From Thermoflexus hugenholtzii (GTDB taxonomy: Bacteria; Chloroflexota; Anaerolineae; Thermoflexales; Thermoflexaceae), in assembly GCF_018771565.1 (NCBI RefSeq), contig NZ_CP076326.1, forward strand, positions 1,240,001 to 1,304,000: a stretch of 64,000 bases of DNA. The letters run 5' to 3'. The number at the start of each line of letters is the position of its first letter. Position 1 is the stretch's first letter. The position numbers were made by a program, and so were the translations under genes. A model generated the notes under the pieces. The model had not been told where the DNA came from. It worked only from the letters and a program-made list of their open reading frames with translations, and did not search any database. Shown here piece after piece: positions 8,316-56,460 of this stretch.

Positions 8316-9632
8316 ATGATCGAGCTCATCCCCTGCCCGGCTTGCGGCCGGGAGATCTTCGCGGAGGAGGGCGTTTGCCCCCACTGTGGGGCCGCTTTCT
8401 GCCCGGCGTGCCGATCCCCCATGCCGGAGGATGCGGATCGCTGCCCCGCTTGTGGAACGGTCTGGGCCTGGTTCTGCAGCCACTGTGACGCGCCCGTCCC
8501 GCCGGAAGCGGAGACCTGTCCGTCGTGCGGCGCGCCCCTGCGGCCCCGGCCTTGCGGCCGCTGCGGGACGATGGTGCCGCCCGACGAGCCGTGCCCGGGC
8601 TGCGGCGCCGAGCCCTGCCCCGATTGCGGCGCGTGGGTGCCGGCGGACGCCTCCGCGTGCCCGGCGTGCGGGTTGCCCCTGGGGGAGATGTGCGCGCAGT
8701 GCGGGGCTGCGTTGCCGGAGGGCGCGACCCGCTGCCCGGCCTGCGGCGCGCCGGCCGGGGAGCCCACCTGCCCGCGCTGCGGCCAGCCCGTGGCGCCGGA
8801 GTCGGGTCTGTGCCCCGCGTGCGGCGCGATCTGGTGCCCGATGTGCGGGGAGCCCGGACCCGAAGAGCCCCTCACGGCGGAGACGCGATGCCGATGGTGC
8901 GGCTTCGAGCTGGCCTTCGCCTGCCCGGGTTGCGGGGCCGTTCTGCTGAGCACGGCGTCGGAATGCCCGGACTGTGGGCGGGTTTTCCCCCGGCGTTGCC
9001 CGTCCTGCGAGAAGCCCCTCTTCGGCGCGCCGGAGCGCTGTCCATCGTGCGGAGCCCCGATCCCCGCGCCTCCTCCCGTGGAGGACCATCCGGCTTCCCT
9101 CCGCCCTTCTGAAACCGCCGCCCTGACGGTTTGCCCCAACTGCCGGACGCTCTTTCGCCCATCGGAGGGGCCGTGCCCGTCCTGCGGCCAGTGGCTCTGC
9201 CCCCGGTGCCGTGCCCGGCTCTGGCCGGATGAGCTCATCTGCCCGCGGTGCGGGGCGGAAACCGGCGCGCGCTGCCCCGATTGCCAGGCGATCATCCCCC
9301 TCGGAGCTTCCGCGTGTCCGATCTGCGGGGCCGAGCTCGCCTTCGTCTGCCCGCGCTGCAACGCCCGTGTCTCCGAAAGGACCGAACGTTGCCCCTCCTG
9401 CGGCCTGGACCTTTCGGGACGCTGCCCCCGTTGCGGGGTGGAGCTCCCGGAAGAGGCCGACGCCTGCCCGGCCTGCGGGCAGGCCCTGTGCCCGGAATGC
9501 GGATCGGCGGTGGCCGAGGACGCCCGCGCCTGTCCGGTCTGCGGGGCCGCCTTCACGTATGTGTGCGAAACCTGTGGGGCGGAGCTGGAACCGGAAGCGA
9601 CCCGCTGCCCGCGTTGTGGACATCCGGTGTAG
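8316..9632 (+). CDS. Zinc-ribbon array protein (17 tandem double-CxxC units)
   Basis: The protein consists almost only of zinc knuckles: I count 34 CxxC pairs in 438 residues (68 cysteines), mostly of the form CPxCG, which makes 17 potential zinc ribbons. There is one longer linker (PIPAPPPVEDHPAS) near residue 260. No membrane segment, enzyme domain or signal peptide is seen. The frame is open far upstream, but ATG at 8316 begins MIELIPCPACG and everything before it reads as an antisense-type shadow of the MBL gene. Short double zinc ribbons (DZANK type) are common, but an array this long with nothing attached is unusual. A role in metal storage or as a scaffold is only a guess. Confidence 0.8.
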   Translation: MIELIPCPACGREIFAEEGVCPHCGAAFCPACRSPMPEDADRCPACGTVWAWFCSHCDAPVPPEAETCPSCGAPLRPRPCGRCGTMVPPDEPCPGCGAEPCPDCGAWVPADASACPACGLPLGEMCAQCGAALPEGATRCPACGAPAGEPTCPRCGQPVAPESGLCPACGAIWCPMCGEPGPEEPLTAETRCRWCGFELAFACPGCGAVLLSTASECPDCGRVFPRRCPSCEKPLFGAPERCPSCGAPIPAPPPVEDHPASLRPSETAALTVCPNCRTLFRPSEGPCPSCGQWLCPRCRARLWPDELICPRCGAETGARCPDCQAIIPLGASACPICGAELAFVCPRCNARVSERTERCPSCGLDLSGRCPRCGVELPEEADACPACGQALCPECGSAVAEDARACPVCGAAFTYVCETCGAELEPEATRCPRCGHPV

Positions 9633-9683: not shown

Positions 9684-10874
9684 TCACCCCGGAGGCCCGG
9701 GATCCTCGATCCTCCACACCGTCCCGACCGGGAACGCGGGGTCCCGGGAGGCGATGACCACCGCCTGATTCCCCCGGGGCTCAAAGACCGCAAGGGCCGG
9801 TCGGCCGGCGCAGGCGCGGGCCAGGGCGGTGAACAGCCAGAGGGGCAGCTTCCCGTTCAGGATGAGGAGCCCTTCCTCCGGGATCGAGGGCAACAACAGG
9901 CCCTCTGTTTCCTCCCGCTCCACATAGGGATGGCGGAGGGCAGCCCGGAGCCGCCATCCCCCGGGCGCGCGCTCGACCGTGAACGCCAGCGGAGATGAAC
10001 GGTCCGCTGTCCGTTCCTCGCCCTCCGTCGCCCATCGGAAGCGCGGGGGTTCCACCCAGCCCAGCCGGACGTCGAACTGGAAGAACGGGGCCGGGAGGGC
10101 GTGGACGGCGAGGGCTGCGTAGAGCCAGGCGGGGCCGCGGCCGTAAAGGGCCAGGGGCTTGCCCTCGGGGAGGAAATCCAGCATCCGGGGCAGATCCTCC
10201 GGGGCCCAGCGCGGGGCCTCCCCTTCCCGACGGACCTCCAGCATGCGGGCCAGCTCGTCCAGGTCGATCACCCAGTCGACGTCGGGGGCCATCGCCAGAT
10301 GATAGCGGCGCAGCTCCTCCGGGTCGTAGCGGAAGAGGGCCGCGATCCGCTCGGCCAGCGCCTCGAAGACCGGCCCCTCCGCCATGCGACCCCGCTCCAG
10401 GCCGGTGATCACCCCGCGCAACACCGGTGTCTCCTCCAGGATCTCCGAGGAGCCTTCCAGGCGGGAATCCAGATCCGCGATCAAATGCAGGCCGTAACGC
10501 CGGACGCGCTCCTGCCAGACCGGGCGGGCCGCGGGATCCCGGATGAGGAGGATCGCGTGGGTGACCACGCCCAGGATCCGCTCTTGCTCCGGGGTCGGCA
10601 TCCCCCCCACATCCACCAGCAGCGGCAGGTGGCGACGCCGGATGTCCTGGACGATCCGATCCACCCAGCGTTCATCGAAGGCCCCCTTGATCCGGAGCTG
10701 CCGGGCCAGCCGGGGCTCCGCCTCGTGAAACCAATCCCCCTCCCCATCCGGCGCCGCCCGCAACACATAATGGGCCACGCCACGCTTCCGCAAGGATTGT
10801 GATAGACTATATGTTAGAACGGATTTACCAGAGTTCGGCGGCCCTCCGATCAGCACAGCGGGGAACAGCTCCAT
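9684..10874 (-). CDS. csx3: AAA-Csx3 fusion: P-loop NTPase plus two Csx3-like repeats (cyclic-oligoadenylate ring-nuclease family)
   Basis: The N-terminal P-loop domain (GGPPNSGKS, residues 10-18; PDGEGDW further on) matches the ATPase found fused to Csx3 in cyanobacteria. The C-terminal part holds two copies of the Csx3 core: GRGPAWLYAALA ... FDVRLGWV (about 244-275) and GKLPLWLFTALA ... FEPRGNQAVV (about 340-375). Csx3 (Crn3) binds and cleaves cyclic tetra-adenylate. D268/R270 in copy 1 and E365/R367 in copy 2 fall on its conserved D-x-R, but the histidine expected upstream is not clearly kept in either copy, so cleavage may be weakened. Start chosen at 10874 because ACGGAGG precedes it; 36 further upstream codons overlap the divergent CARF gene. 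Confidence 0.8.
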   Translation of the reverse strand: MELFPAVLIGGPPNSGKSVLTYSLSQSLRKRGVAHYVLRAAPDGEGDWFHEAEPRLARQLRIKGAFDERWVDRIVQDIRRRHLPLLVDVGGMPTPEQERILGVVTHAILLIRDPAARPVWQERVRRYGLHLIADLDSRLEGSSEILEETPVLRGVITGLERGRMAEGPVFEALAERIAALFRYDPEELRRYHLAMAPDVDWVIDLDELARMLEVRREGEAPRWAPEDLPRMLDFLPEGKPLALYGRGPAWLYAALAVHALPAPFFQFDVRLGWVEPPRFRWATEGEERTADRSSPLAFTVERAPGGWRLRAALRHPYVEREETEGLLLPSIPEEGLLILNGKLPLWLFTALARACAGRPALAVFEPRGNQAVVIASRDPAFPVGTVWRIEDPGPPG

Positions 10875-10893
10875 CGGGATCCTCCGTATCCCG
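10875..10893. promoter_or_regulatory. Inverted repeat between the divergent csx3 and CARF-HTH genes (candidate operator)
   Basis: CGGGAT (10875-10880) and ATCCCG (10888-10893) form a perfect 6-bp inverted repeat with a 7-base spacer. It fills much of the 46 bases between the two divergent start codons, and the csx3 ribosome binding site lies in its spacer. The gene to the right encodes a CARF-HTH protein, so autoregulation of both genes is a reasonable inference; a chance palindrome in G+C-rich DNA cannot be excluded. Confidence 0.35.
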
Positions 10894-10920
10894 GGAGATT
10901 CGGTCTGCGGGAGGTGGGCC

Positions 10921-11802
10921 ATGGAACACAGACCGGCCAGCACGATGATCGCCACGCTGGGTGGGCAGCCGCAGGTGATCACCTTTGCCCTGGACGCCTT
11001 GCTGAGCCGCGGCGAGCAGATCGTTGAGGTGGTGGTGTTGCACCTCGCTCCCCAGGATCCCCGAACCCGTCACGCCCTGGAACGCCTGGATCGCGAGTTC
11101 CCCAACGGCTTCTACGCCCATGCCCGCCGCCCCATCCGCCTGCGTCGGGTCATGCTGAAGGATCTCCGGGGCCCCATGCCGGATATCACCGATGAGCACG
11201 CCGCCGATGTGGTCCGGATGCAGATGATGGAGATCCTTCAAGCGGAGAAGGCGCAGGGCCGTCCCCTCCATGTCGTGCTGGCGGGGGGACGACGCCTGCT
11301 CGCCCTGATGCTCTTCCTCACCGCGGTGGTGCATCTGGATTACGCGGACCGGGTGTGGCACCTGTATACCCCTCGCGCCTTCCTGGAGGTGGCGCGGGAC
11401 GGCCAACGGATGCACGCGCGGCCTGAGGATGGCGTGCGCCTGATCGAGGTGCCCTTCCCCCGCTGGGGGGCGGACTTCCCCGCCTTCCGACAGCTGACCT
11501 CCCTGCAGCTGGGGCAGATCGAGTCGCCGGCGGATCGGATCGGGCGTTGCCGGCAGGTCTGGGAACGGCTGACGGCGGCCCAGCGCCGCGTGCTGGCGGA
11601 GGTCGTGCGCTGCGAACGGCTGGCGCAGGTCGCGGAGGCCCTGGGCCTGTCGCCCAAGACCGTGGACTCCCACCTCGAAGCGATCAAGGCGCTCTGCCGT
11701 GAGACATGGGGGCTGTCCCCTGACCATCGTCTCTCCTATCGGGATCTGCGGGAATGGTTCCGCCCCTTCGCGCCGCTCATGGACCTTTCCACAACCCGAT
11801 GA
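10921..11802 (+). CDS. CARF-domain protein with C-terminal LuxR-type HTH (Cas_NE0113-like)
   Basis: The N-terminal domain opens with MIATLGGQPQVITFAL, the Rossmann-like signature of the NE0113/Csm6-type CARF family, with the second ligand loop LAGGRRLLALMLF near residue 121. CARF domains sense the cyclic oligoadenylate made by type III Cas10. The C-terminus has no HEPN motif. Instead, residues about 217-265 form a helix-turn-helix (RVLAEVVRC ... VAEALGLSPKTVDSHL) of the LuxR/FixJ kind. The protein is thus better read as a cOA-responsive DNA-binding regulator than as an RNase. It is divergent from csx3 with only 46 bases between starts and precedes csx15-cas6. GGGAGG lies 5 bases before the ATG. 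Confidence 0.8.
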   Translation: MEHRPASTMIATLGGQPQVITFALDALLSRGEQIVEVVVLHLAPQDPRTRHALERLDREFPNGFYAHARRPIRLRRVMLKDLRGPMPDITDEHAADVVRMQMMEILQAEKAQGRPLHVVLAGGRRLLALMLFLTAVVHLDYADRVWHLYTPRAFLEVARDGQRMHARPEDGVRLIEVPFPRWGADFPAFRQLTSLQLGQIESPADRIGRCRQVWERLTAAQRRVLAEVVRCERLAQVAEALGLSPKTVDSHLEAIKALCRETWGLSPDHRLSYRDLREWFRPFAPLMDLSTTR

Positions 11803-11995
11803 GGGCCGGGACCGGAAACCGCCCTCCCCGTGGGGCTCCGCTCTGATGCCCCCCAGGGTCAGCGGGGCCCCTCCTGGCTTCTAATCGTAGAAGAACGGCC
11901 AGCCCCTGCATCCGGTCGTCTCCGGATGCGCGTCCGGTCTTTCCCCGATGTCCGGCCTCCCGGGCTCGGCTACATTTGGGGGCAAAGGAGGCGGC
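11803..11995. other. 193-base intergenic stretch before csx15
   Basis: It contains G+C-rich imperfect hairpins (around 11827-11875) after the CARF-HTH gene but no ORF. A separate promoter for the csx15-cas6-cas10 operon is likely here, but no convincing hexamers are seen. Confidence 0.4.
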
Positions 11996-12409
11996 ATGGT
12001 CGTTTTAAACTTTGCGCACCCACTCACACCGGAACAGCAGCGGCAGATCGAGGCCCTTGCGGGGCAGCCGGTGGAACAGGTCATCGCCATCGACGCCCAG
12101 ATCGATCCGGCCCGTCCCCTGGTCCCGCAAGTGGTGTCCATGGTGGATCGGGTGGGGTTCTCCCCCGAGGAGTGGCAGACCCGACCCATCCTGATCCTGT
12201 TGCCCTCGTTGAACTACAGCGCCGGGGTGCTGCTGGCGGAGCTTCACGGCCGCATGGGCTATTTCCCATCGATCATCCGGATGCGGCCGGTTCCGGAGGC
12301 TGTTCCGCCCCGATTTGAGGTGGCGGAGATCATCTCCCTGCAGGCCGTGCGGGAGGCCGCGCGCGCCCGGCGGGGGGCGTCGGAGGGGAGGGGGAGCGAT
12401 GCGTCTTAA
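11996..12409 (+). CDS. csx15: CRISPR-associated protein Csx15
   Basis: The start MVVLNFAHPLTPEQQRQIEA and the following GQPVEQVIAID match the small Csx15 family found with type III systems, and the 137-residue length fits. Csx15, together with Csx16 and Csx20, has been linked to cyclic oligoadenylate binding or breakdown. This is family knowledge, not something the sequence proves. ATG at 11996 is chosen because AAAGGAGG lies 4 bases upstream; the earlier in-frame ATG at 11948 has no such site. The stop overlaps the cas6 start by 11 bases, so cas6 is coupled to it. Confidence 0.75.
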   Translation: MVVLNFAHPLTPEQQRQIEALAGQPVEQVIAIDAQIDPARPLVPQVVSMVDRVGFSPEEWQTRPILILLPSLNYSAGVLLAELHGRMGYFPSIIRMRPVPEAVPPRFEVAEIISLQAVREAARARRGASEGRGSDAS

Positions 12410-13228: not shown

Positions 13229-14842
13229 ATGAGCGATCGCATCCTGATGGCCGGAGATGTGGACACCATCCGCGAGTATGTGTTTGAGACCTCCTCTCTT
13301 CCTCAGATCCGCGGGGGAAGCGAACTGCTACAGGAATGCGAGGGCAAGATTCAAGAGAAATACGGCTCATATGTTATCTACTGCAAAGGCGGCAGTTTTC
13401 TGCTTCAGGTTCCCCCAGGCGAGGCGGAAAGGATCCGCAGAGAGATTGAGCATCTCTATCTGAAGCAGACCCTCGTTGCCACCGTAACGATTGTCTATGA
13501 GACGCACAGTCCTCCGTCGGAGGAGCCTCGGCCGGAGGGTTCCTGGGCGCAGCGGATACGAGACGCAGCAGCTGGCGTGCCGCTCGATGGCGGCTTCGCC
13601 CAGCGCGTGCTTTTCCTAAACGCCCGTCTCCGGGAGGCCAAACGGGAGAAAACCACCGCCCCGTTCTACGAGGCCCTTCCCTTCGGCAAGCGCTGCGAGC
13701 GCTGTGGCAAACGTATGGCCAGCGCCCGGGAGCCAATGGAAGACGGGAAAGCCCTGTGCCTCGTTTGCAAGCATCGGGACGACAAAGGCCGAAAGCGAAA
13801 GGGGGAGATTCGAGGGAAGTTCAACCAGGAGTTCTGGCATCGATGTAAGAAGAATCGCACGGCCGAACAGCCCGATGACCTCGATCATCTGATGGCCAGC
13901 GCCCGTCGCAAGTATCTGGCCTTTTTCTACGCCGATGGCAACGACATCGGCAGCCTGCTTCAGAAAGCCAGGATTGAGAAGGGAGAAGAAGAGGAAAGGA
14001 AATACAGACAGATCTCCGAGGCTCTTCAGAAAGGGACCCAAGAAGCCCTCTTCCAGAGCCTGGAGGCCGTATGCGGCGCAGCATTGGAGCGTGAGGGATA
14101 CTGGCCCTTCGACATCATCAACATCGGCGGAGACGATGTAACCGTCCTCATCCAGGCCGGATATGCCTGGGATTTGGCCGTCGAATTTCTCAAACATTTT
14201 GAAGATGAAGTCAGCCAACGCCTCCCGGAGGACCTGAAGGCCGAATGGAGGCCCACCGCCTCGTGTGGGATCCTCATCGCGGATGTGAAATATCCGGTCC
14301 GCTATATGGAGCGTCTGGCCACCGATTTGTTGAAACGAGCTAAGAAGCGGGCAAAAGAGGATCCCCAGAATCCCAAGAGCGCCATCGATTTTCTCTGGCT
14401 TCCCTCTCCGGTGGCCAGCGACAGGGTTGAGCCCTTGCTGAGCATTTACCGGCGTGGGGGAGAGGTTGAGCTGACCGCCCGGCCCTACACCCTGGACGAA
14501 GCGCAGCGCATCCGGGAGTTGATCCCTCAAGTTGCCCGATGGCCCCGCACCACACGCCACCGCTGGGCAGAGGCCCTGGAACGGGGTGTGTTTCAGTCCC
14601 TTAGCTTCATCCAGTATGACATCGCTCGGGAACGGGGAGGGAAAGAAAAAATCGCCACACTGGAACAAGCCGGAGAGATCCTCAGCAAGCGCGGGGGACG
14701 ACCCATCACGGGGCTTCCCATCTGGTACCGGATCGATAACAATCAGACGGTTATGTGGCGCACACTGCTCCTCGATGTCCTGGAGCTAGCCGAACTGCAT
14801 GCCATGCGGCCCGATGTGGAGGAGGAGGAAGAAGGCATATGA
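13229..14842 (+). CDS. cas10: Cas10 (type III large subunit), GGDD cyclase present, HD nuclease domain absent
   Basis: Cas10 makes cyclic oligoadenylate from ATP when the complex binds target RNA. The protein starts directly in the first palm domain (GDVDTIREYVFE ... IRGGSELL) with no HD domain before it. A treble-clef zinc finger follows (CERCGK ... CLVCKH, about residues 153-182), then the second palm (YADGNDIGSLL) and the cyclase motif IGGDDV with GGDD at residues 300-303. At 537 residues it is much shorter than HD-bearing Cas10 (700-1000). It ends in an acidic tail. Its stop overlaps the next Cas7-like gene by ATGA. DNA cleavage by this subunit is therefore not expected, while signalling is. 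Confidence 0.88.
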   Translation: MSDRILMAGDVDTIREYVFETSSLPQIRGGSELLQECEGKIQEKYGSYVIYCKGGSFLLQVPPGEAERIRREIEHLYLKQTLVATVTIVYETHSPPSEEPRPEGSWAQRIRDAAAGVPLDGGFAQRVLFLNARLREAKREKTTAPFYEALPFGKRCERCGKRMASAREPMEDGKALCLVCKHRDDKGRKRKGEIRGKFNQEFWHRCKKNRTAEQPDDLDHLMASARRKYLAFFYADGNDIGSLLQKARIEKGEEEERKYRQISEALQKGTQEALFQSLEAVCGAALEREGYWPFDIINIGGDDVTVLIQAGYAWDLAVEFLKHFEDEVSQRLPEDLKAEWRPTASCGILIADVKYPVRYMERLATDLLKRAKKRAKEDPQNPKSAIDFLWLPSPVASDRVEPLLSIYRRGGEVELTARPYTLDEAQRIRELIPQVARWPRTTRHRWAEALERGVFQSLSFIQYDIARERGGKEKIATLEQAGEILSKRGGRPITGLPIWYRIDNNQTVMWRTLLLDVLELAELHAMRPDVEEEEEGI

Positions 14843-20293: not shown

Positions 20294-20616
20294 TGAACCG
20301 GGAGGAGCAGATCGCCCTGGCCCAGCAGATCGCTCAAGCACTCCCCGAGGTCACCCGCAACGAGTGGATGCGTTGGGTCCAGATCGCGGATCGGTATGGC
20401 CTGGAGAAAGCCGTTCAACACGCGGAGCGCGTGGCCCAGGACATCACCATGCGACCGGCCATCCAGCGAGCCAACCGCCTGATCGCTCAGGCGGTTCGTT
20501 CCCATCTGGCCACCTTGCAGCGCCTTCAAACCCAGGAGCAGCAAGCCGTCCTGGGCTATGTGTCTTGGTGGCTCCGCATTACGACATTACGCGGATCACT
20601 ACGCGAGGAGGGATAA
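20293..20616 (+). CDS. 107-aa helical protein of unknown function at the end of the III-D operon
   Basis: No family is recognised. The protein is predicted all-helical with an aliphatic N-terminal half (IALAQQIAQALPEV) and a longer amphipathic helix around residues 55-80. It starts within TAATG after the Csm5-like gene, so it is made together with the complex subunits. Size and character are compatible with a second small subunit or an assembly factor. The last dozen residues (ITTLRGSLREEG) look low in constraint and lie at the edge of the A+T-rich PIN insertion, so the original C-terminus may have been altered there. Confidence 0.65.
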   Translation: MNREEQIALAQQIAQALPEVTRNEWMRWVQIADRYGLEKAVQHAERVAQDITMRPAIQRANRLIAQAVRSHLATLQRLQTQEQQAVLGYVSWWLRITTLRGSLREEG

Positions 20617-20621
20617 AAGCA

Positions 20622-21044
20622 GTGCGCTTTCTGTTCGATACATCGATATTAATTGACTATTTAACAGACGAAAAGAGCACATCCGCGGATGCCATTTTTA
20701 AAGCAAGCGAGATTGGAAAATGTTATATAAGCATAATTAGCATCATGGAATTATATCAATCAAATAAGCGAAGGCGAGAAGTGGAAGAAGAAGTTCGGAG
20801 AATCCACGATATCTGCAGACTTTTGAATATTAAGATTGTTTATATTACGCTGAAAATCCAACAAATTGCCATCGATATTATAAAAAATTACTATTCTAAT
20901 CTGGGAAAAAGTTGCATTCCTGACGCTTTAATTATAGGCACAGGAATTGTGAGAAAGGCATACGTCGTAACAAAAGATTATGGTGCATGGTCTAATGCTT
21001 ATAGTCAAGTCCTAACTCCAGAAGAAGTTATCAAGAGGTTCTGA
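20622..21044 (+). CDS. PIN-domain (VapC-like) ribonuclease, A+T-rich insertion in the CRISPR operon
   Basis: A 140-residue PIN protein: FDTSILIDYL at the N-terminus carries the first catalytic aspartate, E in SIMELYQSN the second acidic position, and SCIPDALIIG plus VVTKDYGAW the last acidic positions, as in VapC toxins. GTG start at 20622 with GAGGAGG about 10 bases upstream. Base use is very different from its neighbours: I count 39 G+C in the 120 bases 20641-20760 (about a third), against well over 60 % around it. This points to recent transfer. No antitoxin gene of like composition accompanies it. It begins 5 bases after one gene and ends 1 base before the next, so it is now within the transcript. 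Confidence 0.8.
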   Translation: MRFLFDTSILIDYLTDEKSTSADAIFKASEIGKCYISIISIMELYQSNKRRREVEEEVRRIHDICRLLNIKIVYITLKIQQIAIDIIKNYYSNLGKSCIPDALIIGTGIVRKAYVVTKDYGAWSNAYSQVLTPEEVIKRF

Positions 21045-23177: not shown

Positions 23178-24761
23178 ATGACAACGATGTGGAATCTGCC
23201 CATCCGCCACGATCCCTGGCTGGATAACGGCCTGGAGGTCCTGGCCGGGATGGCCGAGGCGATCGCCCGCCAACACCCGGCCGTCCTGAGTGTCCGCCTG
23301 GAGCCCGACGGGCTGCGCCTGGAGATCCAGCAGCTCCAGCGCTTCGCCCGCCTCCTGAGCCATCAAATCGCGCTCCAGGTCGAAAACGCTTATTACATTC
23401 CGGAGCCCGGGCGCAAGGTGTTGAAACCGTTCGTCGGCTTCAATCAGCAGCCTCCGAAGCAGCATCCTGAACTTTATCGGGGGAAGGAGGCGATTGAGGC
23501 GTTCGTTCAGGAGCTCCTGGCAGAGATCTCGCAACCTTCCAACCGCCGATCCCGCTTCACGTGTCCGTTCTGTGGGGCACCGGCCACGGAGAAGCGCACG
23601 CTCTCCCTCTATCCCTTCGTGACTAAGACGAAAGCCCTCGGCGGGCAGGCGGTGTGGGAAGAGGCCGGGTTCCGCGGCCTGAACGAATACGGGCCGATCT
23701 GCGCCGTCTGCGCCTTCCTGGGCATGCTGGCCTGGTCCGACACCGCCCTGCTCTACCGGTGCGACATCGATGGTCCTCAGGGGACAGCGCTCCTGGCCCT
23801 CCCATGGCCGCAGCCCCTCGACTTGCGCCGTCTGCACACCCAAAAGCAACGTTATCGCCGCGCCCTGAACCCCGCCCACCGCCGCAGCAACGTCCAGGTG
23901 GTGGTTCGCTGGGGGGACCGGGAGCGGGAAGACTGGCCTCCCCAGGCGTTCACCATGCTTCTGGCCTTCTATGAGGCCGCCCTGAGCCGGGTGCTGAGGG
24001 AGATCCAGGGAGACGGCGAGGAGGGCCTCTTCGAGCTGACCGCCCTGCGCGGAGTGATCCCGGATGGCTGGATCCTCCTCCGCATCCCCCAGGGTCGGAT
24101 GAAGGACATCACGGCGACCGACTGGTTCATGGAGGACGCCATCCTGCGCGTCCTGCGCTCCATGATCGAAGCGGACGTCCTCCCCTATCAGGGCATCCTC
24201 ACGGGGATATGGCTGACGCTGGAGGGACGGCGCATTGATGAGGAAACCGCCGCATGGCGAGAGGAGCGCGCGGCCGCTTTCCTGCAGAACGATTTCGGGG
24301 GATTCGCCTCAGGCTTCGGGATTCGACGTCGACAGATGCTGGGGTTCTACAGCGAAGCTGTTCAGGGCCTTCACCAATGGATCCAAACCTGGCTGGAGGA
24401 GCGGAAGACGATGAACGAGCAGGAGCTGGAGCTGGTGCGACGAGCGGGGCGGACGATCGGCCGCATCGCGGGCGCTCAACGCCGGGCTACGATCCTTTAC
24501 GAGATGGAACGGGCCCGCACCCCCTCCGATCTGCTGGGCGTGTTGAGCGACGTGGTGCATCGCTTGGTGGGGATGGAGGCCCAGGAGATGCGGGATCAGT
24601 ATCTTTCCCTGGAAGCCCTCGACCGGCTCACCGCCCTGATCCACGCCGCAGGAGACGACGCCCGCCGGTTCGCCGACATGAAGCACACGCTCTTCATCTA
24701 CGCCGGGCTGGAATACGCAGGGGTGATCCGGGGGCAGACCGCCGAGGCGACCGCCCGCTGA
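23178..24761 (+). CDS. cas8: Cas8 (Cst1-like CXXC-CXXC large subunit), type I module 1
   Basis: Large subunit of a Cascade complex that recognises the PAM and recruits Cas3. The identification rests on the Cst1-type pair of knuckles C129-xx-C132 and C175-xx-C178 separated by a segment with LSLYPFVTKTKALGG, the 527-residue size, and the order cas8-cas7-cas5-cas3. The C-terminal 170 residues are helical, where a small-subunit-like domain is expected. The 140 bases before it separate it from the CARF operon. Sequence divergence of Cas8 makes the exact subtype (I-B Tneap-like versus I-A) uncertain. Confidence 0.75.
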   Translation: MTTMWNLPIRHDPWLDNGLEVLAGMAEAIARQHPAVLSVRLEPDGLRLEIQQLQRFARLLSHQIALQVENAYYIPEPGRKVLKPFVGFNQQPPKQHPELYRGKEAIEAFVQELLAEISQPSNRRSRFTCPFCGAPATEKRTLSLYPFVTKTKALGGQAVWEEAGFRGLNEYGPICAVCAFLGMLAWSDTALLYRCDIDGPQGTALLALPWPQPLDLRRLHTQKQRYRRALNPAHRRSNVQVVVRWGDREREDWPPQAFTMLLAFYEAALSRVLREIQGDGEEGLFELTALRGVIPDGWILLRIPQGRMKDITATDWFMEDAILRVLRSMIEADVLPYQGILTGIWLTLEGRRIDEETAAWREERAAAFLQNDFGGFASGFGIRRRQMLGFYSEAVQGLHQWIQTWLEERKTMNEQELELVRRAGRTIGRIAGAQRRATILYEMERARTPSDLLGVLSDVVHRLVGMEAQEMRDQYLSLEALDRLTALIHAAGDDARRFADMKHTLFIYAGLEYAGVIRGQTAEATAR

Positions 24762-24879
24762 GGCTCAAAACATTCAAAGGCCCGCAGGATGCCCTTCAGC
24801 GTCCTCCTGAGGACATGAAGCGCTCAGCGTCATCTTTTGCAAACCGCGATGCGAACCCCAACTCAAGAGGAGGAGAGCG

Positions 24880-25857
24880 ATGGATGTGAAAGCGATCTCT
24901 ATGGTATGGCTCTCCCGCACCGGGCTGACCAACCTGAACGCGGGCGAGGGCGGCAGCAATCTGGTGGATCTGAAAAAATACCGCTGGGCCGGGCGCGAGT
25001 ATCCTTACGTCAGCGGCCAGGCCATGCGCTTCTACCTGAAGGAGGCCATCCGCCGCGAGGTGCGTCCGGAGGAGGCCTGTGTGGCCGATGAACATGGAGA
25101 AACATGCGGGCGCATCGCCGAGTGTGTGCTCTGCGATCTCTTCGGCTTCATGACCACCCTGCCCGATGTGGGGGCCGTCGTCCGGGTGTCTCCCGTCAAG
25201 GTCTCCCCGGCCCTGGGCCTGATCCCCCTGGAGGAAACCATGACCGTGGACTTCCTCACCCGACGCCACCGCGGTGCGGTCCAGGAGGAGGCCGGGACCA
25301 TCCGTGGGGACATCGTGAACGTGGAGATGGCTGTCAATCTTTACAAGGCAGGCCTGGCGGTGGATGTGCGCCGGGTAGGCCGCGAGGAGGAGCTGGTGGA
25401 GATCGAGAAGGGCCGCGGGAAGAAGGCCCAGACGGTGAGGGGGGTGACCCTGAAGGATTACGTTGATGAGGCGGAGCGCCGGCGGCGCATCGGTCTGCTG
25501 CTGAGCGCGGTGCAGGACTTCAGTGATTATTCCAAACAGGCCCGGCTGCTCACAGACTTCACCCCCGATCTCCTGCTCGTCGCACTCCAGGCCAACTATT
25601 CCCATCGCCTCCAGAAGGCCCTGGAGATCCGATGGGATGGCGCCGCTATCCTTGATACGGCACGGCTCGATCAGGTGCTTCGGGAGCTTCAAGAGGATGT
25701 GGCAAAGGCAGATGAACGGCCAGCGGTTTTCGCCGGGATGCTGGAAGGCGTGATCGCGAACGGGGAGGCGGTCCGGGAGACCCTGGCCCGGCACGGGATC
25801 GAGGTCGTCACGCCGCGGGAGGCGATCGCACGAGCGAAGGCCGCCCTGGGGGTGTGA
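24880..25857 (+). CDS. cas7: Cas7 (DevR/Cst2 family), type I module 1
   Basis: Cas7 forms the crRNA-binding backbone of Cascade. MVWLSRTGLTNLNAGEGG, then YPYVSGQAMRFYLKEAI, are the DevR-family signatures. A cysteine segment (CGRIAECVLCDLFGF) and the later SPVKVSPALGLIPLE follow the usual order. It has 325 residues. GAGGAGGAGAGCG precedes the ATG. The 118 bases upstream, after cas8, hold no ORF. Confidence 0.85.
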   Translation: MDVKAISMVWLSRTGLTNLNAGEGGSNLVDLKKYRWAGREYPYVSGQAMRFYLKEAIRREVRPEEACVADEHGETCGRIAECVLCDLFGFMTTLPDVGAVVRVSPVKVSPALGLIPLEETMTVDFLTRRHRGAVQEEAGTIRGDIVNVEMAVNLYKAGLAVDVRRVGREEELVEIEKGRGKKAQTVRGVTLKDYVDEAERRRRIGLLLSAVQDFSDYSKQARLLTDFTPDLLLVALQANYSHRLQKALEIRWDGAAILDTARLDQVLRELQEDVAKADERPAVFAGMLEGVIANGEAVRETLARHGIEVVTPREAIARAKAALGV

Positions 25858-25861
25858 GCCC

Positions 25862-26557
25862 ATGACGAAATATGGGCTGACCGTGGATCTGGAGAGCCCG
25901 TATTTCGCCTGCTTCCGCCAGGTGGCGGCCACCAGCGTGGTCCTCACCTACCCGGTTCCACCTTTCACCACGATCCTCGGCATGCTGCTCAACGCCCTGG
26001 GGGTTCACCACGCCCACTACGAAACGGAACGGCAACGCCTGCAGGAAGCGCTGCGATTCAACCTCCGGCCGCTGGAGTCCCCCGGGCGGCCCCAGCGGGA
26101 GCTGGCGAAGCTCCTCAAGCTGGTCGGGGAAGGCCGAAAAGAGGAGGGGAAACGCCCGGTGGATTTCCCCTCCTCCCCGGTGCGCAAATCTTTCCTCGTC
26201 CGGCCTGCCTATCGGGTTTATCTGGCTTCGGGGTCCCAGACGATCGTCCAGGAGCTCGGAGAGGCCCTGCGACGCCCCGCCCGTCCACTGTATCTGGGTG
26301 GATCCGACGACATGGTGATCGTGAACCTTCGCTGGATAGGCGAAGTGAAGCAAGCTGAGGGTCGAGAGGTCTGGGGGTTGCTGCCCGGCATTTACGAAGG
26401 CTGCGAGCTGATCCGCCTGCCGCTGGCTTTCCGGAGCGGGCGCGATCTGGCGCCGCCGCCACTGCTCGCGCTGCCGCGCCGCTTTCCCTTCCAGCTCCCC
26501 GAGCCCCAGCCTCTGGCGTTTTTCGAATCCGAGGGCGTGATCCTGCTCCCTGTTTGA
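25862..26557 (+). CDS. cas5: Cas5, type I module 1
   Basis: Cas5 caps the 5' handle of the crRNA in Cascade. VDLESPYFACFRQVAATSV with TYPVPPFTTILGMLLNALG is the typical N-terminal RAMP fold of Cas5, and the 231-residue size fits. It begins 4 bases after cas7. The C-terminal domain is short and ends LAFFESEGVILLPV. Confidence 0.85.
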   Translation: MTKYGLTVDLESPYFACFRQVAATSVVLTYPVPPFTTILGMLLNALGVHHAHYETERQRLQEALRFNLRPLESPGRPQRELAKLLKLVGEGRKEEGKRPVDFPSSPVRKSFLVRPAYRVYLASGSQTIVQELGEALRRPARPLYLGGSDDMVIVNLRWIGEVKQAEGREVWGLLPGIYEGCELIRLPLAFRSGRDLAPPPLLALPRRFPFQLPEPQPLAFFESEGVILLPV

Positions 26558-26635
26558 GCCTCGCCCCGCGAGGCCGTTGCCTTCGGGCATGCCGCTTCGA
26601 TCGAGGTCAAGGGACAACGCCCAGGGAAGCGCACC

Positions 26636-29056
26636 ATGGCGTTGTGGGGGAAGCGTGACGGCGAGCGATGGCAGACCCTCTACGGACACATCCGGGACAG
26701 CCTGGCCATCGCGGAAGCCCTCGCCCGGAGGCCCGGCCTTATCGGGTTCTGCCGCCGCCATGGACTTGATGCCCATCGTTTCCGCCAGATCGTTGGGCTG
26801 GTCGTCCTCTTTCACGATGCGGGCAAAGGCACCGCCCCCTTCCAGGAAGCGCTGGAGGCCGATCGAACCTCATGGAATTTCCCCCACGCCCTGGCGGCTT
26901 TGCCGCTGATGGACATGGCCTGGCGGAAGGCCTCTTTCCCCACGCTGCTGAAAGAAGCCCCCATCCTTGAGGTGCTCGCGGTCGCCGCCCACCACACGGA
27001 GCTACATCGGGATCTCTACCAGAACCTTCCGGAACCCCACAAACGGCTCAGCTTCCTCCCCGCGCTCCAGGAGATCCTGCGTCGGCTCTACGAGGAGACT
27101 GCTCCGATCTGGGGTTGGGCCGCTGCGTTTCCGGACCTGCCGCTGGATGAGCTCTCGCGGCGCACGCTGGGCGAGCTGTCCAAAGCGTTGCTGAGGATAC
27201 GAGAGAGGATCACCCAGCAAGTCGCCGGGATGTCAATGGAAGAGCAGGCGCGCTTCCGCGCCCGTTACGTGGCGCTCCTCGCCTACCTCAAGGCGGCAGA
27301 TAAAGCGGCCAGCCGCGTCTTCGCTGAGCGGGCCCGCCCGGGGGAGAACGGCCCGCTGCTCCCCTTCCCGCTCCCGGAGGCTGAGCTGGAATCCATCCTC
27401 CCCGACTGGCCATCGGATGCCGAAGAGGGACTGCGAAGCACCCTGCCCCCCGGAGGGGACTGGTTCGACTATCAAAAGAAATTGCAGGAGGCTTCGTTCC
27501 GGTGGGGGCTGGTGCGAGCGCCATGCGGCCGGGGGAAGACCGAAGCCGCTCTCCTCTGGTTTTTGCGGCGTCGGAAGCTCGAAGGCCTGGACCGTTTGAT
27601 CTGGACGCTCCCGACGCAGGTGACCTCCAACGCCATGCGCGAGCGGCTGGCCCGCATGTTCGGGGAGGAACGGGTCGGTCTCTATCATGGACGCTCCAGC
27701 CTGGAGCATCGCGAACGGATCCGGGCCCGATTGCAGCAGGGCCCAGAAGGACCCGCCCCCCTGGATCCAGATCCGGCCCTTGAGCTGGAATGGGCCCGCG
27801 AGGCGAATTTCTGGAGTGAGGTCCTGGCTTATCCCCTGGTGGTCACCACCGCGGATCACCTGCTGTATTCGTTCGTGCACGGCTTCCCTCAGGCCGATTT
27901 CGCTCTGGGGATGCTCCAGGGAGCCGCGGTGGTGTTCGACGAGGTGCATGCCTACGACGATCAGATGCAGGCCGAGCTGCGGGAGGCCATGGCCTTGCTG
28001 CGCGGGATGGGGGTTCCCCATCTGGTGATGAGCGCCACCCTTCCCGACCCCCTGATCCAGGCCGGTCGCCTGGAAGATTACCCCTTGATCGAAGACGCGG
28101 CGGGAATGATCCGATGCCCCTTCCAGGTCCTGAAGCGAGCGCAACCGCTGATCCGGAACGAGAACGCTCGCCTGATCGTGAACGAAGAAGTGATCGAAGA
28201 GGTGCTGGACGGGTATCGCAACGGGGCGGTTCAGTTCCTCATCGTGAACACGGTGCGCAAGGCGCAGGCCCTTTACCGGCAGCTTCGCACTTTCCTGCCG
28301 CCGGAGGACTGTCTCTGTCTCCACAGCCGGTTTGCCTACGCCCACCGCCGGGCGAAAGAGCGGCAGGTGATCGAGCGTCTGAAGCGCCCGAAGGCCGACC
28401 GCACGCCCTTCGTCCTGGTGACCACTCAGATCATCGAGGTCAGCCTGGATATCAGCGCGGATCGGATCCTCTCGGAGATCGCGCCGCTCGATGCTCTGGC
28501 CCAGCGGGGCGGGCGGGTGAACCGGGGAGGTGAGCTCCCTCACGGCCTTCTGATCGTTTTCCCGGTCGACGTCCCCCATCCCTACGATGGGGAACGCCTG
28601 TCCCGCAGCTGGGAGCTTCTCCGCGAGGGTCCGGTCTCTTATGGAGATCTCCATCAGTGGGCGAACGAGGTCTATGCCGATCTGGAAGGGGGAATGGCCC
28701 GGCTCCCCGAGCTGTTCATGGAATGCACCCTCTTCGGGCCGGATCCCTCCGAAGTGCGATTCGATGAAGAGCACGGGCGTCGCTACCAGCCCCGGCGTAT
28801 CGAGCAACCCACAATCGATGTGATTCCCCATGAGATCTGGGCCCGGCTCCAGCCCGACACCTCACCGCTGGAGTTCCTCACGCCGGTTCCTCTCTGGTGG
28901 CTGGCCCACAGCCAGCGCCAGGGGCTGGGCTGGTTCTATCTGGCGGAACGTCCCCCCTCCCGCCGCGCCTGGCTGATCTGCCGCCGACCATATAGCGAGG
29001 AGATCGGATTTGAGGAGGATATCGAGGTCGGAACATCCGGTGTGATCGTGGAGTGA
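26636..29056 (+). CDS. cas3: Cas3 helicase-nuclease (HD plus DExH), type I module 1
   Basis: Cas3 unwinds and degrades DNA bound by Cascade. The HD nuclease is N-terminal (H60-D61 in LFHDAGKG; AAHHTELH further on). The helicase has Walker A CGRGKT (residues 297-302), DEVH at 435-438, the SAT motif MSATLPD and motif VI QRGGRVNRGG. At 806 residues it is a full HD-helicase fusion. The Walker A is PCGRGKT instead of the usual PTGxGKT, a conservative change. A start at 26636 leaves 78 bases after cas5 with no feature. Confidence 0.9.
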   Translation: MALWGKRDGERWQTLYGHIRDSLAIAEALARRPGLIGFCRRHGLDAHRFRQIVGLVVLFHDAGKGTAPFQEALEADRTSWNFPHALAALPLMDMAWRKASFPTLLKEAPILEVLAVAAHHTELHRDLYQNLPEPHKRLSFLPALQEILRRLYEETAPIWGWAAAFPDLPLDELSRRTLGELSKALLRIRERITQQVAGMSMEEQARFRARYVALLAYLKAADKAASRVFAERARPGENGPLLPFPLPEAELESILPDWPSDAEEGLRSTLPPGGDWFDYQKKLQEASFRWGLVRAPCGRGKTEAALLWFLRRRKLEGLDRLIWTLPTQVTSNAMRERLARMFGEERVGLYHGRSSLEHRERIRARLQQGPEGPAPLDPDPALELEWAREANFWSEVLAYPLVVTTADHLLYSFVHGFPQADFALGMLQGAAVVFDEVHAYDDQMQAELREAMALLRGMGVPHLVMSATLPDPLIQAGRLEDYPLIEDAAGMIRCPFQVLKRAQPLIRNENARLIVNEEVIEEVLDGYRNGAVQFLIVNTVRKAQALYRQLRTFLPPEDCLCLHSRFAYAHRRAKERQVIERLKRPKADRTPFVLVTTQIIEVSLDISADRILSEIAPLDALAQRGGRVNRGGELPHGLLIVFPVDVPHPYDGERLSRSWELLREGPVSYGDLHQWANEVYADLEGGMARLPELFMECTLFGPDPSEVRFDEEHGRRYQPRRIEQPTIDVIPHEIWARLQPDTSPLEFLTPVPLWWLAHSQRQGLGWFYLAERPPSRRAWLICRRPYSEEIGFEEDIEVGTSGVIVE

Positions 29057-29146
29057 AAGGGTCGAAAAACCAGCATCTGGGCAGAGGATGCAGCCATTGC
29101 GTCCGAACGGCACCTGTCGAGCACTCTATCTAAGGAGGAAAACGCG

Positions 29147-30409
29147 ATGAAAGCCCTCAGCTTTCTCGGCGCCAGCCGATATCAAACTGTTACTTACGTG
29201 TGGGAAGGATCGTCTCACACCACCTCGCTCTTTCCGGAAGCCCTGGCCCGGATCTTTAGCCCCAAGGAGGTCATTGTCTTTGTCACCAAGACGGCAAGGG
29301 ACTATCGACCTTCCGAGGCAGAACCTACTTACACGGAAACGCTGAATCAGCGCCTCAAGGGCCTCATACGGTTTGAGGACATTCCCGAAGGGCGCTCGGA
29401 AGCAGAGCTCTGGGAGATCTTCGACCGGGTATCGGGTGCCGTCAGGGAAGGGGAGACGGTGATCCTGGATATCACCCATGCCTTCCGGTCCATTCCCATG
29501 ATCGTCTTCGCTGTAGCCAGCTATCTGCGGCGGACGAAAAACGTCAACGTCGAGCGCATCGTCTACGGTGCCTTTGACGCACGAGAGCCTTTCCGCACGC
29601 CGCCCCAGCCGCAAGATCGCGCGCCCATCTTCGACCTCACACCGCTCCTCGAGCTCATGGACTGGACCGGCGGCGCCGAAGCCTTGCTCAAGCGCGGAGA
29701 CGCCGGGCTCATCGCTGACAAAATGATCGCGGCCCACCAGACCCTGTGGCGCACAGGCACGGGCACGCCAGCCAGACTCAAAACGCTGGGGCAGAAACTC
29801 CAGGACTTCTCGCAAGCCCTGCATCTGAGCCGTCCCCGGGAGGTCATGCGCACGGCCCATGAACTCTTGTCGCTTCTGGAGGAAGCTCGGGATGAGTTCC
29901 AGCGGTGGGCCCTCCCCTTTGCTCTCCTGGCCGAGCAGATCCGGCGTGAGCTTGAACCCCTCGCCTTTGCCAAACCCGACGCGCTTAGCCGGGAAAACCT
30001 GGAACGGCAGGTCGGGCTCGTGGAGTATTACCTCCGGAAAGGGCTTGTCGTGCAAGCCATCACGCTTGCCCGGGAGTGGGTGGTCTCGTTCGTGCCCCTC
30101 TATGGGGGAAAGGAAGAATGGCGCGAAGGATGGCTCAAGCACAGCAATCGGGAAGAAGCCGAACAAGCGCTCGGTGCTGCCGCCGCCCGCCGGCGAGGAG
30201 AAAACGCCGAGCCACCGGAGTGGTTTGATCGGCTCTCCAATAAAGAAGAGCTCGGGGAGCTTTGGAACAAACTGGGAAACCTCCGCAACGACCTCGCCCA
30301 CTGTGCCATGAGGGAAAACGCCCGTAGCGCCCGCGCAATTGAGCAGGATGCGCAAAAAATTTCGCAAGAACTCCGCAAACTGCTTGACTCGGCACCGGAC
30401 ATCGTCTAG
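29147..30409 (+). CDS. csx1: Csx1-type CARF-HEPN ribonuclease (TM1812 family)
   Basis: A cyclic-oligoadenylate-activated RNase expected to cut RNA non-specifically when Cas10 signals. The N-terminal CARF begins MKALSFLGASRYQTVTYVW, with VILDITHAFRSIPMIVFAV as the second ligand loop, both typical of the TM1812/Csx2 group. The C-terminal HEPN domain has its catalytic RxxxxH as RNDLAH at residues 380-385. It lies between the two type I modules rather than in the type III operon. TAAGGAGGAAAACGCG precedes the ATG. Confidence 0.88.
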   Translation: MKALSFLGASRYQTVTYVWEGSSHTTSLFPEALARIFSPKEVIVFVTKTARDYRPSEAEPTYTETLNQRLKGLIRFEDIPEGRSEAELWEIFDRVSGAVREGETVILDITHAFRSIPMIVFAVASYLRRTKNVNVERIVYGAFDAREPFRTPPQPQDRAPIFDLTPLLELMDWTGGAEALLKRGDAGLIADKMIAAHQTLWRTGTGTPARLKTLGQKLQDFSQALHLSRPREVMRTAHELLSLLEEARDEFQRWALPFALLAEQIRRELEPLAFAKPDALSRENLERQVGLVEYYLRKGLVVQAITLAREWVVSFVPLYGGKEEWREGWLKHSNREEAEQALGAAAARRRGENAEPPEWFDRLSNKEELGELWNKLGNLRNDLAHCAMRENARSARAIEQDAQKISQELRKLLDSAPDIV

Positions 30410-30485
30410 CCCGGCGCCCGTGTGGTTGTGGACTGGCGCACCTTCTATCAGGACACTGCACGGCAGCACGCAGGGAGATCACCCA

Positions 30486-31997
30486 ATGAAGCGAGCACCC
30501 ACCACTGTGACAGTAAGGTTTTCGTGGGATCGTCCCACCGGCAACTTCTGGGTGGACACCGGGCTTGTGGTGCTTCTGCGACACTTCGGAGAGGGGGAAC
30601 ATCCGGTCAAGGACGTGCTGAGCTGGCTCCAGGGCCAACTCCTTCAGCCGAGCGGAAATCGTGGCCAATATTACGACCGGGCCAGTGGCCGAATTCGTGA
30701 GTACGACAAAGTGAACTGGGTCTATCCGACCAACCTGTTCATCAAGGTCTCGGGGCGAGCCAACAAAACCACAGTGAAAATCAACGGGGAAGAGGAAACG
30801 CTCTTCACCGAACCCCCTAAGTTTGAGCTCAACCTGAAGCTCACCAAAAAACCGGACATCTGCGACCTGTGCGGAGAGGCCGCTCCCCTGACCGACGCCG
30901 CGATGTGGATGTATCCATTCGTGGTCGACCCGCAGAAGTTCGGCACCTTCTACCCCGGCACCAAGCGCGGATTGCGGCTGTGCGCCCGCTGCGCCCTGGC
31001 TGGGTTGGCCGGATACCTAGGATGGTTGTGGAAGGCTCATAAAGACTGCATACACTTTTTCGTTTTTCATTCTGATCTGCAAGAGCTGAAACGCTTGCAT
31101 GAGGAAGTCCTGGGCCCCCTTCGCCTGGAGGGCGGGCGCAGCGGGACGGCGCCCGTTGCTTTCTCAGGCCCCTATCTCCACGAAACCACATGGGGCCTTC
31201 TCCTGGTCCTTTTCTCCCACGTGCGCCGATCCGATCAGCTCTCTGATGAAGCCCGACAGCTGCTGGCCTCGCTTTTGGGGGCTACGGATGTCCCTCCCCC
31301 TGCTCCCCTTACGCTTTACGCGGTGATGGGCACATCAGGACAGGCTTTCAGCATGAAAGCGCTGCGGGAATTCTCCCAGTTGCAGCGGCTCTATCGAGTT
31401 TATGAGGCTTGGATCGAAGGGTTGCAGGATCTTGGCATAGAGCGGGTAAATCCCCATCAGCGGCTGGTGGAAATCTTCCGACAATTCGAGGCGCAACAGG
31501 GACAGAATCAGGAGACCATCTGGCGAGACCGCATCGCGTGGGCCGTGCTGGAGTTCAACGATCCCTCGCCGTTCATCGAGCAATTCCTTTTTGAAGCGCG
31601 GGCCCGAGAGAAAAACCCCCGGCCGCTGGTGTGGGGGACTATCGAGATCCTCAACCAATACCTGAAGGAGGTGTTTGGCATGGACGAACAATTCCAGCGC
31701 GTCCTGGCAGGCTTCGGGCATTCCCTGGGCACGGCAGCCCAGGCGCGCAACGAGATGGGGCTTCTCTACGCTCTACGCAACGCCAAAAACCCGGAAGACT
31801 TCTACCGGGTGCTGAACGACGCCCAGTTTCGGCTCGAAATCACAATCCCGGAGGCGATCCTACGCATCGAAAAAGGCGAGCGCATCGCTGGCGTCCCATG
31901 GGTGCGGGTGAAAACGCTCCTCTCCATCTACGCGATGAACGCATTCCTGCGCAAGAACGCACCCCAGCCGGAACGAGCCCAGATTGAGGAGGCTTAA
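30486..31997 (+). CDS. cas8: Cas8 (Cst1-like CXXC-CXXC large subunit), type I module 2
   Basis: A second large subunit with the same plan as module 1: C126-xx-C129 and C166-xx-C169 separated by a segment with AAMWMYPFVVDPQKFG, 503 residues, and helical C-terminus. Outside this plan the two Cas8 proteins share little by eye, which suggests different PAM recognition. ATG at 30486 follows AGGGAGATC; the frame is open 49 codons upstream but overlaps the end of csx1. It ends 2 bases before cas7. Confidence 0.75.
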   Translation: MKRAPTTVTVRFSWDRPTGNFWVDTGLVVLLRHFGEGEHPVKDVLSWLQGQLLQPSGNRGQYYDRASGRIREYDKVNWVYPTNLFIKVSGRANKTTVKINGEEETLFTEPPKFELNLKLTKKPDICDLCGEAAPLTDAAMWMYPFVVDPQKFGTFYPGTKRGLRLCARCALAGLAGYLGWLWKAHKDCIHFFVFHSDLQELKRLHEEVLGPLRLEGGRSGTAPVAFSGPYLHETTWGLLLVLFSHVRRSDQLSDEARQLLASLLGATDVPPPAPLTLYAVMGTSGQAFSMKALREFSQLQRLYRVYEAWIEGLQDLGIERVNPHQRLVEIFRQFEAQQGQNQETIWRDRIAWAVLEFNDPSPFIEQFLFEARAREKNPRPLVWGTIEILNQYLKEVFGMDEQFQRVLAGFGHSLGTAAQARNEMGLLYALRNAKNPEDFYRVLNDAQFRLEITIPEAILRIEKGERIAGVPWVRVKTLLSIYAMNAFLRKNAPQPERAQIEEA

Positions 31998-31999
31998 CC

Positions 32000-46944: not shown

Positions 46945-47226
46945 CGCTTCACCTCCCTACAGGGTTTTGAGGACGGAATGGAGACCATCCCCTCACCGTG
47001 TAAGCCGAAATCCATTTCGGCCTCCTTGCCGTAAGCGCAGGAACGGCTTCCGCTGCAACCCTTGTGCCATCGAAGACCGAGCGTTCGAGGCTGAAGCCCC
47101 CCGCGTAAGCCGAAATTCATTTCGGCCACATCCCCTCACCACGATACATCGCGTGCTTCCGCCGCGACCCTTGCGCCGTCCAAGGCGGAGGTTCGGAGCG
47201 AAATCCCCCTACAAAAGCCGTTTTTT
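46945..47226. repeat. Degenerate repeat copies upstream of the 143-bp tandem array
   Basis: This stretch repeats parts of the downstream unit in diverged form: CGGCTTCCGCTGCAACCCTT at 47044-47063, ATCGAAGACCGAGCG, GCTGAAGCCCC, and two copies of the hairpin GTAAGCCGAAAT.CATTTCGGC near 46999 and 47105. No ORF is supported. Confidence 0.65.
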
Positions 47227-56222: not shown

Positions 56223-56309
56223 CGTTGCCGCCTCCATCATGATGATAACCCATCCGTCGCATGGGGAGAAGGACGGATCCAACTGCGTAACTTCTAAATA
56301 AATGATAAG

Positions 56310-56343: not shown

Positions 56344-56460
56344 TCAGGCAGATTCGCCCTCGGGCCGTCCAAGCGCCCAGGATGGATGAAGCAGGATCCC
56401 GTCGGCCTATGCGCCGATAGGCGGATCCGTGCGGACGGCTGGGGCAAACCCGTCGAACAG

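Follow-up and report, generated by a model that had tools for sequence, protein, structure and literature searches.

Among the closest described systems are the Crn3/Csx3 ring nucleases, in which a dimer-of-dimers cleaves cyclic tetra-adenylate (cA4) in a Mn-dependent manner. The Archaeoglobus enzyme AfCsx3 holds cA4 on one face of its dimer (S44-G45-R46, I49, D69 and R71), its metal site is formed by H57, H60 and H80 on the other face of the adjoining dimer, and the single changes H60A and D69A each leave its activity undetectable (PMC7371418). Cat1, a TIR effector whose dimers stack around cA4, is activated by this molecule, and ring nuclease activity could not be detected in it (PMC12162218); Csx3 goes unmentioned in the paper on this protein. 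Fusions of Csx3 to an 'AAA' or kinase-like domain have been recorded in cyanobacteria (PMC7371418, PMC9676260, PMC12409355), and the role of the P-loop ('AAA') domain in such fusions has been described as unknown (PMC12409355, PMC9676260). Further, the Csx15 family comprises both ring nucleases and sponges for cA4, and some of its members do no more than sponge cA4 (PMC13148439). The protein described here, referred to as AAA-Csx3, is encoded in a stretch of 64,000 nucleotides from Thermoflexus hugenholtzii (contig NZ_CP076326.1, positions 1,240,001 to 1,304,000), which was analysed as a whole and is called the window below.

Domain architecture and distribution of AAA-Csx3

The AAA-Csx3 gene (P0001) lies on the minus strand at 9684..10874, exactly where the initial annotation of this DNA had placed it, and its translation runs from an ATG at 10874 to a stop at 9684, giving a protein of 396 aa in which a P-loop NTPase domain is followed by two Csx3 domains. 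In the sequence, a GGAGG ribosome-binding site is found a few nt upstream of this ATG; an alternative GTG start would lead to a protein of 432 aa. As the full length of the protein is kept across Chloroflexota, the frame is not a chance ORF. The AF2 model of the single chain has a mean pLDDT of 91.2 and a pTM of 0.86. On the other strand, a convergent gene (8317-9632, plus strand) stops 52 bp short of the 3' terminus of AAA-Csx3, and its protein consists almost wholly of CPxCG-type zinc-ribbon motifs, of which there are more than 15.

The Thermoflexus protein is a member of an already catalogued family, the PADLOC-DB profile C3a67 'AAA-Csx3' (PDLC01059) matching residues 1-389 of its 396 (E 1.1e-122, 408 bits). 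About 47 of the 400 Chloroflexota genomes sampled carry AAA-Csx3, nearly always at full length, and the P-loop domains from this phylum form a monophyletic group (support 99/96). A search of 50,697 phage records and of viral contigs gave no homologues, and the only matches on plasmids were cyanobacterial P-loop ones. In the searchable literature, which excluded some key classification papers, no paper dealing with AAA-Csx3 by name was found, nor any account of its function, catalytic state or partner gene; within the same bounds, the inactive state and the constant pairing with a CARF-LuxR gene that are described below appear not to have been reported.

The P-loop domain (10290..10874, minus strand; residues 1-195) is the best-conserved region of the family, with a mean column identity of 52%, and when it is folded alone its pLDDT is 91.5. 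Its Walker A motif, GGPPNSGKS (10821..10847, minus strand; residues 10-18), conforms to GxxxxGK[ST], which is seen in 54 of the 55 Chloroflexota homologues. The one exception is L064, from Candidatus Viridilinea halotolerans, where the Walker A motif is destroyed (SAAPADGQR) and the R71 equivalent lost, with the open frame and the CARF-HTH neighbour both kept. A second motif, DGEGDW (10731..10748, minus strand; residues 43-48), is located in a loop that the model places with low confidence, and D43 together with an acid at position 45 is likewise found in 54/55 of these homologues. The form DGEGx[WYH] extends to relatives from cyanobacteria, Verrucomicrobiota, Ignavibacteriota and Thiotrichaceae; DGEGxW is common to the last three and Chloroflexota, and most cyanobacteria read WDGEGx[WYH].

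The Walker B position is occupied by VDVGG (10602..10616, minus strand; residues 87-91), in which D88 is invariant (55/55) and G90 and G91 are each conserved in 54/55, and the acidic pair of the AAA+ type (hhhhDE, Asp-Glu) is absent. The Pfam profiles AAA_16 and AAA_18 score 17.2 and 16.3 bits against cut-offs of 32.6 and 29.4, respectively. When the domain alone was compared with known structures by Foldseek, the list was led by the SIMIBI-class proteins CTP synthase, FtsY/Ffh, GPN GTPase and HypB, with adenylate, shikimate and APS kinases interspersed among them, and no AAA+ protein occurred among the 50 matches listed. An AAA+ assignment is thus ruled out by profile, by motif and by the Foldseek list, and of the name 'AAA NTPase' given in the initial annotation the second half stands, as a P-loop NTPase with a Walker A motif, while the first fails by any of these tests. 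The predicted fold suggests a SIMIBI-like domain, and it is no more than a suggestion of this class due to TM values of 0.4-0.5. A sequence search of the PDB for clues to the substrate returned only Walker A matches.

Ligand and metal faces of the two Csx3 repeats

Repeat 1 (9993..10286, minus strand; residues 197-294) has the core YGRGPAWLYAALA...FDVRLGW, and repeat 2 (9696..9995, minus strand; residues 294-393) the core NGKLPLWLFTALA...FEPR. Against the whole chain, Pfam Cas_csx3 gives 4e-20 in two stretches. Taken alone, repeat 1 of the Thermoflexus protein matches this profile at 4e-4, narrowly below the curated cut-off, and among its relatives 22/33 match at E<=0.01, the best at 3e-8; for repeat 2 the value is 1e-15, and this repeat matches in 31/31. 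Profile-profile comparison by hhalign, in which the intact-Csx3 reference consisted of eleven domains, places repeat 1 at a probability of 97.3 (E 1.8e-11) and repeat 2 at 99.3 (E 8e-21). The PDB chains of AfCsx3 are also found by the profiles of both repeats (E 3e-4 and 1e-15, respectively), and Foldseek aligns the AF2 model with AfCsx3 at a target TM of up to 0.86, a value for which the aligned repeat is unspecified. Hence the claim that two complete Csx3 domains follow the P-loop in one chain holds on Pfam and hhalign, and repeat 1, for which the initial annotation had named a fold other than Csx3 as a refutation, is placed with Csx3 on sequence evidence by the hhalign probability and the Pfam matches of its relatives. 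The tandem domains plausibly form a built-in pseudo-dimer, as had been proposed; this arrangement is one that we infer, as the model covers one chain.

Of the two faces that AfCsx3 employs, the ligand face is largely kept in the residues of AAA-Csx3 (counted over 55 Chloroflexota homologues), with the Asp/Arg pair mainly in repeat 1. This pair, D268-V-R270 (10065..10073, minus strand), corresponds to D69/R71 of AfCsx3, and both residues occur in 46/55; in the ligand loop of the same repeat, Y-G-R-x-P-x-W, the counts are Y 54, G 48, R 50, P 53 and W 55 of 55. In repeat 2, G and P are present in 55/55, W in 54/55 and K or R at the R46 position in 41/55. Its E365-P-R367 (9774..9782, minus strand), at the D69/R71 position, is a minority form in the family: most members have Q-P-Q (Q 34/55 and Q 30/55), and an acid with R is seen in 9/55. 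The residue numbers that had been given for both pairs are correct, and the binding of cA4 by this face is probable from the conserved loop and Asp/Arg pair.

The metal face shows a different pattern, the equivalents of H57, H60 and H80 being absent from both repeats of AAA-Csx3 and family-wide, which bears out the earlier remark that the expected histidines could not be discerned. In neither repeat does any of the 55 homologues have His at both the H57 and H60 positions. That the histidines were merely misaligned is ruled out by an alignment-free pattern, P.W.{5,8}HxxH, which is found in 3/55 homologues versus 4/4 intact Csx3; a shifted HxxH in repeat 2 is limited to L028 and L051, and the match in L042 is spurious. 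Arg is the commonest residue of repeat 2 at the H57 (36/55) and H80 (29/55) positions. Further, the cA4-capping residues of stacked Csx3 and Cat1 dimers are poorly conserved in the family, and due to this, stacking of the kind seen in Csx3 and Cat1 may not occur. The pattern of residues fits better with a non-cleaving ligand site than with a slow ring nuclease.

Relatives in other lineages differ in which of the catalytic residues they keep. All of these residues are present in single-unit Csx3-P-loop chains of one cyanobacterial clade, of the verrucomicrobium L068 and of the Ignavibacterium L073. In a second cyanobacterial clade, an intact stand-alone csx3 directly precedes a gene whose fused Csx3 lacks the histidines mostly or wholly (viz. 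the pairs L071/L099, L074/L090, L076/L086, L078/L089, L079/L101 and L080/L106); H57 and H60 are retained in the fused Csx3 of L081, and the partner in L106 is without H60. Within this second clade also falls L131 (1420-2796, plus strand), a single Csx3-Csx3-P-loop chain of reversed order in comparison to Thermoflexus, neither Csx3 of which has the catalytic His. In L132 and L133, Csx3 and the P-loop protein are encoded by separate neighbouring genes. Two Csx3 units per P-loop, with the metal face lost in at least one of them, have thus arisen in more than one lineage, which supports the idea of a pseudo-dimer short of proving it. P-loop plus Csx3-like proteins were also noted in Candidatus Ancillula (L077), where the chain runs on into a HAD-like domain, and in Saccharibacteria (L070).

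An intact Csx3 acting in trans, in the manner of these cyanobacteria, was likewise considered for Chloroflexota and rejected, no such gene being found: the Thermoflexus genome contains no stand-alone intact Csx3, and the 400 Chloroflexota genomes contain none that is convincing. Almost all of the Csx3 matches in these genomes lie within frames of AAA-Csx3 length, and the exceptions (in G012 and G078) are short or weak.

The divergent CARF-LuxR gene and the type III locus

Upstream of AAA-Csx3, and divergent from it, is a gene (10921..11802, plus strand) for a CARF-LuxR-type HTH regulator, which matches Pfam Cas_NE0113 at 2.3e-30 and at its C-terminus GerE at 5.6e-5, narrowly below the cut-off. 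The region between the two genes (10875..10920) is 46 bp long and contains CGGGATcctccgtATCCCG. No sigma-70-like promoter was found in it, and a shared operator was sought and rejected, as no common palindrome was seen by eye or by script. In the phylum sample, the CARF-HTH gene is adjacent and divergent at 49/51 AAA-Csx3 loci, and the other two are at contig ends, so that the pattern holds for 49/49 of the assessable loci. Of the 34 Chloroflexota loci in a set of genome contigs (L032-L065), which overlaps the phylum sample in species, 30 have the CARF-HTH neighbour, 28 of them in divergent orientation, and the remaining four start at the edge of a contig. When genomes rather than loci are considered, 45/54 of those with a CARF-HTH gene have AAA-Csx3 and 9/54 are without it, an association over the 400 genomes (Fisher p 7e-48) that is uncorrected for phylogeny, species sampling being uneven and the counts ignoring shared ancestry. 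A neighbour of this kind was not seen by tblastn beside the cyanobacterial relatives.

The regulator gene is followed by csx15 (11948..12409, plus strand; PADLOC Csx15 5.8e-41) and by cas10 (13229..14842, plus strand; PADLOC Cas10 3.8e-77), the translation of which contains the GGDD cyclase motif, so that it is the likely source of cOA. Of the 47 carrier genomes, 44 have a Cas10 palm, and at 32/51 loci it lies no more than 10 kb from AAA-Csx3; the remaining loci are in many cases on short contigs. By this genomic link to cas10, AAA-Csx3 is a type III CRISPR accessory gene. Csx15 occurs in 35/47 carrier genomes versus 29/353 of the others, a co-occurrence that comes in part from shared type III systems and ancestry. 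The regulator, Csx15 and the catalogued architecture had no place in the initial annotation, whose interpretation is upheld in part.

Separate CARF nuclease effectors are encoded near AAA-Csx3 in the window and at L039, L045 and L061, and the proposal that AAA-Csx3 is the sole effector of its locus is refuted at all four loci inspected. In the window, CARF genes lie at 21046 and 22060, and at 29147 there is a gene of the CARF-HEPN type. The first two are immediately preceded, inside the type III operon, by what is by eye a small PIN-like (VapC-type) gene (20480-21044, plus strand), whose codon use is A+T-richer. Beside this operon, the region 23178-35912 apparently holds two tandem cassettes of type I-B-like character; Cas8b at 23178 is a PADLOC match, and two Cas3-like genes (26636 and 33363), like the second cassette itself, were recognized by eye. 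Farther along the window are a 143-bp tandem repeat in about 4 copies that are 93% alike (47208-47786) and a gene (55041-56501, minus strand) for a TnpB-like protein, identified by eye from a CPVCG...CPCG zinc motif and a RuvC-like stretch.

Proposed mechanism, alternatives and known systems

The reading that we favour, by analogy and with a probability of roughly 0.55, is that AAA-Csx3 is a cOA-gated P-loop protein, in which the tandem Csx3 domains would serve as a non-cleaving sensor similar to that of Cat1, rather than as a ring nuclease. The roles of sensor, for the tandem Csx3, and of output, for the P-loop domain, are assigned on the Cat1 precedent. In such a system, Cas10 would make cA4, the tandem Csx3 pseudo-dimer would bind cA4 without cutting it, and the binding would alter the state of the attached domain, a putative NTPase or kinase whose presumed activity would be the output. 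Expression of AAA-Csx3 would be coupled to the divergent CARF-LuxR regulator, which probably senses cOA itself, and Csx15, in those cases in which it occurs, may remove or buffer the signal. The gene of L064, which remains open despite its lost Walker A motif, counts against this reading, as do the poor conservation of the cap residues, the weak Pfam match of repeat 1 in the Thermoflexus protein and the part that shared systems and ancestry have in the co-occurrence with Csx15.

An alternative, which we regard as unlikely, is that the protein is a sponge or buffer for cA4, in which the dead Csx3 pair would sequester cA4 and damp the response, with the P-loop serving for assembly or for the release of the ligand, the latter role having been suggested in the initial annotation. 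The retention of the binding face along with the loss of the catalytic face accords with this possibility, such behaviour is known for some Csx15 proteins (PMC13148439), and an expression that is likely linked to cOA through the divergent CARF-LuxR gene would suit negative feedback. However, a plain sponge would not call for P-loop motifs to be kept in 54/55 homologues, and the near-invariant Walker A, DGEGxW and VDxGG imply an NTP chemistry that goes beyond sequestration. The presence of Csx15, a second buffering family, in 35/47 of the same genomes also argues against a sponge, an argument that is qualified by the rarity of two ring nucleases in one published locus (PMC12409355).

The suggestion in the initial annotation that the protein cleaves slowly fares worse. 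A slow or conditional ring nuclease would have to cut cA4 by means of unrecognised residues, a partner or the P-loop domain, and although Csx3 is a family of ring nucleases, D268 and R270 are kept in repeat 1 and the cyanobacterial single-unit Csx3-P-loop proteins retain all of the catalytic residues, the loss of H57, H60 and H80 from both repeats throughout the family makes slow cleavage unlikely. In AfCsx3 the change of H60 alone renders activity undetectable (PMC7371418), and no intact Csx3 that might act alongside was seen in the 400 Chloroflexota genomes; we therefore consider this reading improbable. Hardly more can be said for the view that AAA-Csx3 is no effector alone and instead binds or modifies the CARF-LuxR protein, as a co-sensor or anti-regulator. 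Its basis is the invariant adjacency in both gene samples, which is far tighter than for any other single gene examined. However, divergent pairs of a regulator and its target are common and contact between the proteins is unnecessary for them, 9/54 genomes with CARF-HTH are without AAA-Csx3, and the cyanobacterial relatives have no such neighbour by tblastn. In decreasing order of probability, these alternatives are the sponge, the slow nuclease and the partner of the regulator.

To return to the cOA-gated P-loop protein, a broader form of this proposal, which we advance tentatively and with less than even confidence, is that AAA-Csx3 and CARF-LuxR together make up a cOA circuit of two genes, where a ring nuclease that was duplicated and is catalytically dead would act as sensor and switch a P-loop output of a new class (the DGEGxW family). 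If this is true, then a P-loop enzyme that in other relatives has retained an active ring nuclease to switch itself off would represent, with AAA-Csx3, one effector family occurring in self-limiting and Csx15-limited forms. As the ring nuclease part of AAA-Csx3 is predicted to be dead, this protein offers a clean way into the function of the P-loop domain, and any effect of cOA on it should report on the P-loop output. The work also names CARF-LuxR as the constant regulatory partner of AAA-Csx3. Further, a profile match is no safe basis for naming such proteins 'Crn3 ring nuclease'; AAA-Csx3 itself scores 50.9 bits with the NCBIfam equivalog TIGR02579, below the required 55.4.

In comparison to known systems, the Thermoflexus protein is structurally no different from the AAA-Csx3 of PADLOC C3a67. 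With the cyanobacterial Csx3-AAA and Csx3' fusions (Slr7080, PMC9676260; PMC7371418 Fig. 1) it has the P-loop family, the Csx3 domain and the type III context in common, but in these proteins Csx3 comes first and there is usually one per chain, whereas in AAA-Csx3 the P-loop comes first and is followed by two Csx3. AAA-Csx3 matches Crn3/Csx3 (AfCsx3, 6YUD/3WZI) in fold, in the GRGP-W ligand loop and, in repeat 1, in the D/R pair; unlike Crn3/Csx3, it has two units per chain and a fused P-loop and is without the H57/H60/H80 metal face. The C-terminal 'CARF' domain of Cat1 (PDB 9mud) matches Csx3 profiles, and Cat1 (9MUD) is matched by the profiles of both repeats (E 3.7e-4 for repeat 1 and 2.6e-3 for repeat 2). 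Cat1 and AAA-Csx3 would thus be alike in that a related, putatively cOA-binding domain follows an N-terminal output domain in the chain, the latter being a proposal in the case of AAA-Csx3, and in a lack of ring nuclease activity, which for AAA-Csx3 is predicted. However, Cat1 has one sensor domain per chain and a TIR output, and no conserved equivalents of its cap residues K225/N226/R227 are seen in AAA-Csx3. The joining of an effector to a cOA-handling domain is also seen in the 'fuse to defuse' protein Csx1-Crn2 (PMC7293037), and Csx15 (PMC13148439) is a precedent for a ring nuclease family in which some members are not enzymes; the folds of both are unrelated to that of AAA-Csx3, in which it is the domain derived from a ring nuclease that is predicted to be inactive.
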